Positions 35,924 through 36,199 of a stretch of 43,847 nt of DNA are shown here, piece after piece (the stretch's first letter is position 1; every line of letters begins with the position of its first letter). The stretch comes from Nitrospinales bacterium (GTDB lineage: Bacteria > Nitrospinota_A > UBA7883 > JACRGQ01), in NCBI GenBank assembly GCA_023248535.1, contig JAHFEJ010000019.1, positions 1-43,847 on the forward strand, in the 5' to 3' direction. The notes below the pieces were generated by a model. The model was given only the letters and a program-made list of their open reading frames with translations, searched no databases and was not told the origin of the DNA. A program made the translations under genes and the position numbers.

Positions 35924-35952
35924 AAAAAATATGGTGGGCGAAACAGGGCTCG
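35924..35952 (-). repeat. Partial duplicate of the tRNA-Val 3' end plus flank
   Basis: aaaaaatatggtgggcgaaacagggctcg identical to 36116-36144. Confidence 0.9.
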
Positions 35953-36123
35953 GCCACTGTCGCGGTCGCGTCACGCTCCCGCTCCATCGGCCCCCGCCCG
36001 CCGCTTTTCGGGCATCCATGCCCGAATGTGCTGCGCACTGCTCGCGCCGCGGCGCGCGTTTCGAGCCTCGCAGCGATTTCGTCAACCACAATGTCATCAT
36101 TGGCACATCAGCGGAAAAAAATA

Positions 36124-36199
36124 TGGTGGGCGAAACAGGGCTCGAACCTGTGACATCCAGCTTGTAAGGCTGGCGCTCTACCAACTGAGCTATTCGCCC
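36124..36199 (-). tRNA. tRNA-Val (anticodon TAC), CCA encoded
   Basis: Minus strand gggcgaatagctcagttggtagagcgccagccttacaagctggatgtcacaggttcgagccctgtttcgcccacca; folds as a cloverleaf with loop CTTACAA. Confidence 0.97.

Follow-up and report, generated by a model that had tools for sequence, protein, structure and literature searches.

Why does a second copy of a tRNA 3' end lie behind the tRNA-Val gene of this Nitrospinales bacterium, and what is the sequence that separates the two copies? The window (the whole stretch of DNA that was analysed, 43,847 nucleotides long) contains a 29-bp repeat of the tRNA-Val 3' end that is exact at 29/29 positions (35924-35952 and 36116-36144, 192 bp from start to start), as the preliminary description had stated. 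That description likened the arrangement to the rtT-type repeats of E. coli or to the att duplication of a minimal tRNA-targeted element, and it also raised the possibility that a transcript through it is cut into a small RNA whose ends resemble those of a tRNA. Read on the tRNA strand, the window holds a single unit with the following parts (basis of each in brackets):

36124-36199, minus strand: host gene tRNA-Val(TAC), CCA encoded (ARAGORN; Rfam RF00005, 77 bits).
36069-36123, minus strand: S, the 55-nt spacer from the tRNA end to the antisense arm (position).
36060-36068, minus strand: A, the antisense arm AGGCTCGAA (GGCTCGAA matches the reverse complement of tRNA-Val 54-61 exactly).
35953-36059, minus strand: the core, about 107 nt with four helices (covariance model R1 and covariation).
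36049-36058, minus strand: P1 5' arm CGCGCGCCGC (fold and consensus).
36033-36047, minus strand: P2 hairpin region GCGCGAGCAGTGCGC (fold).
36007-36026, minus strand: P3 hairpin TTCGGGCATGGATGCCCGAA, the palindrome TTCGGGCATCCATGCCCGAA of the preliminary description (fold, consensus and covariation).
35995-36004, minus strand: P1 3' arm GCGGCGGGCG (fold).
35952-35994, minus strand: P4 hairpin, GGGGCC..GCGGGAGCGTGACGCGACCGC..GTGGCC, its last C being the first base of T (fold, consensus and covariation).
35932-35952, minus strand: T, an exact copy of tRNA-Val 56-76 including CCA (exact repeat and sister-species comparison).
35924-35931, minus strand: 8-nt flank TATTTTTT, present 3' of the tRNA end and 3' of T (exact repeat).

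The unit is real as first described, but that description was incomplete: the antisense arm, helices P1 and P4, and the recurrence at other tRNAs were missed. Two palindromes had been singled out in the spacer. The first (36007-36026) is helix P3 of a fold common to the whole family, while the second (36043-36056) spans parts of the 5' arms of P1 and P2 and is no separate feature of the unit. The antisense arm of the window copy has a match to its tRNA that 4% of non-cognate tRNAs equal in score. No terminator was found on the tRNA strand of the window copy, so gene and unit could be co-transcribed.

A blast search of the window's own genome (2.87 Mb in 132 contigs, from a groundwater bacterium) returned similar stretches beside other tRNA genes, and the sequence downstream of all 44 tRNA genes was read. 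Units lie behind 18 of the 44, as well as behind the tmRNA gene, giving about 23 related units in the genome. Their layout on the tRNA strand is the same throughout: the tRNA, S (~55 nt), A, a core of ~105 nt with four helices, and T. The arms are defined by the host, i.e., A is the reverse complement of host tRNA positions 54 to ~66 (the 3' half of the T-arm), and T is the sense sequence of the host tRNA from about C56; the antisense copy is the less consistent of the two. Tandem units occur here at the tRNA-Met, tRNA-Arg(CCT) and tRNA-Ser(GGA) genes.

The covariance model R1 was trained on 17 aligned cores with tmRNA left out. At E <0.1 it makes 24 matches in this genome: the window copy (35945-36068, 88.1 bits, E 2.7e-18) and 23 others, one of which lies behind the tmRNA gene. 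Because tmRNA was absent from the training set and has only the T-arm and CCA end in common with tRNA, this match is an independent check of the rule. The preliminary description had proposed that absence of the spacer from other tRNAs and from relatives, together with the lack of a transcript, would indicate a chance event; the trailing unit is clearly present at both. The core had no match above the gathering score in Rfam (window region and seven loci), and literature searches, whose scope excluded most subscription papers and the earlier rtT work, gave no description of such units.

How far do these units extend? R1 matches all 11 genomes of one Nitrospinota family and none of the 13 other genomes of the phylum. 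The assignment to Nitrospinota follows from the window's PGK, whose closest counterparts, at 82-96% identity, come from Nitrospinota/Nitrospinales groundwater MAGs and one further MAG. In the 11 family genomes, 113 units were read, with presence uneven among close relatives (for example, 23 matches in the window's genome and 4 in that of a sister species, G001). A strict-filter search of 385 genomes gave one match outside the family, in a genome of another phylum (G270), whose tRNA-Leu unit is laid out in the same way. About 150 bp beyond this unit is a CRISPR array with Rfam CRISPR-DR4 repeats (L322 146-1433). With R2, a covariance model made from 111 units, 30 units were found in 14 of 51 genomes of the second phylum, in two families. 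Most of these follow a tRNA or tmRNA gene; their hosts are tRNA-Ser, Leu, Phe and Arg plus tmRNA, mainly Ser/Leu and tmRNA, and the tRNAs of this phylum, as seen here, are without genomic CCA. At these loci a terminator-like hairpin lies between gene and unit, and tandem arrays have a period of 183-187 bp. Most single spacers measure 46-65 nt in both phyla. All of these genomes are metagenome-assembled; assembly may have collapsed arrays in them, and a unit forms the end of some contigs. Searches of viral contigs (two exact patterns) and of plasmids and phages (blastn) found no element.

The core is held together by structure. RNAalifold on the 17 cores gave 33 pairs, 25 of them changed on both sides, and in an enlarged alignment 32 of the 33 have double-sided changes, with 92% of cells paired. 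The covariation score was 0.641, against at most 0.096 for slid controls, in an alignment that was fitted to the model and therefore favours structure. A tandem GA/GA is present in P2 in 98 of 107 distinct units. By our own tally of well-paired columns, GU outnumbers AC by ~40:17 in the core, so the tRNA-sense strand seems to matter; the ratio in tRNA stems of the same genomes is 33:0, which makes the core GU excess a weaker RNA signature than that of tRNA stems. A reading of the loops as CsrA-like GGA motifs was dropped because they vary among GGA, TGA and CGA.

The arms behave differently from the core. For 97 of the 113 units, a tRNA or tmRNA lies on the same strand no more than 700 nt upstream. 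Of the other 16, several stand where a contig breaks off or follow a tRNA/tmRNA 3' end that is truncated, and a small number are genuine orphans. (In genome G002, tRNA-Ala(CGC) has a second unit 2 kb away from the first, with a core that is 98% identical, downstream of a tRNA-Ala 3' half that is truncated; L276, G002:C164.) T resembles the unit's own tRNA in 70% of units and A in 67%, where resemblance means that at most 5% of non-cognate tails score as high. Under a stricter test, in which the own tRNA must beat every other host tRNA, T succeeds in 45 of 96 units (15 ties) and A in 34 of 96 (25 ties), and in the second phylum T succeeds in 24 of 25 and A in 13 of 25; conserved T-arms limit this test, and the low counts for A arise partly because T-arms are alike.

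Core identity does not follow the host tRNA: it averages 51.6% for the same tRNA in different genomes, 50.6% for different tRNAs in different genomes, and 55.9% for different tRNAs within one genome. Since cores are unlinked to tRNA identity and arms match the local tRNA, the core appears to disperse over longer times while the arms are local. Within the genus, orthologous units at the His, Leu-CAA, Arg-TCG and Val-TAC genes are >90% alike and, judged by that likeness, clearly common by descent. In the Nitrospinota set, A and T depart from the tRNA independently, being alike in 3 changed cells, which is about chance. This is as expected for copies and not for a selected stem, and a closing stem of A with T was rejected as a selected helix, as it has no compensating changes.

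Sister species offer a view of the loci without units. The Val locus is empty in G001 (L107/L191) and has a decayed unit in L108, and the start of S in the window unit resembles the flank of the empty G001 locus. The Asp locus is empty in both G001 and genome G003. In the window's genome, the sequence after the Asp T continues the native flank of G003, so T looks like the original end of the gene and the present tRNA 3' half like the newer copy. Of 65 units, 30 have C56 as the first base of T, and the outer end of T varies widely. Remnants consisting of A and part of the core are found in G001 at His, Leu, Glu and Ser-TGA.

Our best reading, which we find slightly more convincing than doubtful, is a small DNA element of ~180 bp that encodes no protein, disperses, and enters tRNA and tmRNA genes at the T-loop, close to C56. 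The core would act as a folded single strand and be joined at a break in the T-loop, with the mobilising enzyme acting in trans. The tRNA 3' half and some flank would then be copied again, which would restore the gene and leave T behind, and a fold-back copy, we infer, would give rise to A. In the window, T would thus be the original tRNA-Val 3' end, displaced by the insertion, and the 3' part of the present gene from C56 (36124-36144) would be the rebuilt copy. Tandem arrays may come from repeated insertion or unequal exchange, and old copies would decay to A and part of the core. As the gene is restored, the effect on the host is probably near neutral. The att duplication suggested in the preliminary description holds in outline, with empty sites and a repeat boundary at C56, but the unit encodes no integrase, being too small to contain one, and we know of no att arrangement that includes an antisense arm.

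Several observations count against the element reading: no transposase or integrase is linked to the units, there are two clean empty sites only, A fits its own tRNA strictly better than all other host tRNAs in no more than 34 of 96 units, the ~55-nt spacing varies less than one would expect from random fill-in, a few orphan units lack an adjacent tRNA, the excess of GU over AC speaks for a role of the tRNA-sense strand, and the strong covariation could equally mean an RNA function. One locus on the minus strand (L280, G010:C104) has a tRNA-Ala(GGC) sequence interrupted in the T-loop (...GGGGTTCG), followed at once by A and the core, with the 3' half after the core; the gene may be broken, or the arrangement may be the immediate product of an insertion.

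Which enzyme might move the units? Judged by Phage_integrase and Y1_Tnp match counts, no transposase or integrase is linked to them. A tyrosine recombinase specific to the family was rejected because Phage_integrase matches show no excess there; five family genomes have only two each, presumably XerC and XerD. RAYT-like (Y1_Tnp) genes are present in 10 of the 11 family genomes and absent from G009, which has 12 units, and the sampled Y1_Tnp loci have hairpins unlike the core, so RAYT acting through REP hairpins was also rejected as the mobiliser. The window's genome has eight weak Y1_Tnp (RAYT-like) matches on several contigs, the most in its class of genomes, and one such match lies ~0.7 kb from tRNA-Arg(TCG) both there and in G003. 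A larger autonomous version was sought and set aside: farther T copies enclose toxin-antitoxin genes or other cargo, with no obvious transposase.

At two loci, tRNA-Arg 3'-end copies have type II toxin-antitoxin genes (HigB/HigA, HicA) between them or past them (L085 1784-2795; L202 808-1467), and a glyoxalase-family gene lies between two tRNA-Ser(TGA) units in G008 (L082 2061-2546), the second of which has a nearly full-length antisense arm (TGGCGGAGGGAGAGGGATTCGAA). At another locus (L321 82-1242, minus strand), the end of a tyrosine recombinase gene adjoins a tRNA 3' fragment with two tandem units behind it, an arrangement that looks as though the arrival of an integrative element had separated these units from their tRNA.

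An alternative to a DNA element is a structured RNA linked to tRNAs, in which read-through or a promoter of its own yields a transcript of the core, with T, and this transcript is a small RNA or has a role in maturing tRNA 3' ends, as has been suggested for the rtT RNA. The covariation far above the slid controls, the high share of paired cells, the tandem GA/GA of P2 and the excess of GU over AC all fit such a role, as do the constant use of the tRNA strand with similar spacing in two phyla and the annotation in E. coli of a small RNA, RttR, that covers the first rtT unit. However, the stem of A with T lacks compensating changes, and pairing of A with the tRNA at the RNA level was rejected because departures have no G-U preference (29 vs 34 transitions). 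A terminator-like hairpin separates gene and unit at several loci, presence is very uneven in close relatives, and cores are not tied to tRNA identity. The uneven presence and the terminator-like hairpins lead us to weight the DNA strand over RNA, and we consider the structured RNA rather unlikely. The small RNA with tRNA-like ends that the preliminary description envisaged fares poorly on the same grounds, i.e., the uncompensated A:T stem and the hairpin between gene and unit.

Template switching during replication is a quite improbable source of the units: fold-back or slippage at tRNA palindromes would produce A, T and the hairpins, and gene conversion between tRNA loci would spread the core. 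The geometry (X-loop-X'-core-X) suits it, the nearly pure Watson-Crick pairing of the core fits quasi-palindrome correction, and S is often a palindrome running from CCA to TGG, yet a core homologous in two phyla and its conserved unpaired motifs are left unexplained. (Long perfect palindromes of this kind, from the tRNA CCA to TGG, are often seen as spacers at L054, L026, L043, L074 and L199; as they start at CCA, the last bases of the gene are part of the terminator-like hairpin.) We give very little probability to the units being decoy or remnant attachment sites of integrative elements, with T offering integrases a second tRNA 3' end. Ser/Leu tRNAs and tmRNA are frequent integration targets and are also the main hosts in the second phylum, at L082, L085 and L202 toxin-antitoxin genes or other cargo are found between T copies or past them, and a tyrosine integrase stands beside the tandem units of L321, but most units are without any element, and neither A nor the covarying core has a role in that scheme. 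A chance local duplication at tRNA-Val would be tenable only for a single locus viewed in isolation; the 23 further matches in the genome and >100 in relatives refute it, and its probability is practically nil.

Returning to the dispersing DNA element, its relation to known systems can be stated for each in turn. Integron attC sites are similar in that structure is conserved more than sequence and in their possible use as a folded single-strand substrate; they differ in that no GTTRRRY-type core was seen by eye in the units, that Phage_integrase matches are so few in five of the family genomes, and that the tRNA-derived arms have no counterpart. REP/REPIN sequences, which are associated with RAYT (a Y1 transposase), are likewise short, dispersed, protein-free hairpins, whereas the units are linked to tRNAs. 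Integrative elements and genomic islands in tRNA genes also insert in the T-loop region, duplicate the tRNA 3' end at their distal end and restore the gene. The units differ from them in having no integrase inside, a size of ~180 bp, an antisense arm, and arms that match each host tRNA separately. If the element reading is true, an element that takes its ends from each target would insert in a way for which we know no precedent among described bacterial elements, and this would also bear on why tRNA and tmRNA genes attract mobile DNA.

The closest likeness is to rtT, an E. coli oddity of unclear origin, and here the comparison made in the preliminary description was well founded. Both rtT and the Nitrospinota units lie directly downstream of a tRNA gene and carry a copy of its 3' end. 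Behind tyrV of E. coli MG1655, rtT has three T copies 178 bp apart (AATCCTTCCCCCACCACCA) and, 58 nt after the gene, an antisense segment GGGGAAGGAT that is the exact reverse complement of tRNA-Tyr 58-67, the counterpart of A at a like spacing. GAGAAGC follows this segment, as in the Asp unit here, and a hairpin predicted by fold, CTC-GA-GC-GCCA-GC-GA-GAG, has the tandem GA of P2. The rtT core is shorter, and R2 matches it weakly (11.4 and 8.6 bits on two copies). Going by its sequence, rtT follows the same plan as these units, and its core is likely, though unproven, to share an ancestor with the Nitrospinota core. We know of rtT only from tyrosine tRNA loci, whereas the hosts here are 18 of 44 tRNA genes and tmRNA. 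A wider proposal, which we offer tentatively and doubt somewhat more than we believe, is a new class of mobile DNA for which the T-loop of every tRNA or tmRNA gene is a possible target and whose ends are copied, in both directions, from the target 3' half; it would occur in two phyla or more, and rtT, in a third, would be a relative that has become fixed or has decayed. If rtT does belong to a multi-phylum family, comparison can be used to test what it does and where it came from: R2 can serve at once for searches, close to half of the tRNA genes in a single genome provide copies, and sister species provide the empty sites.
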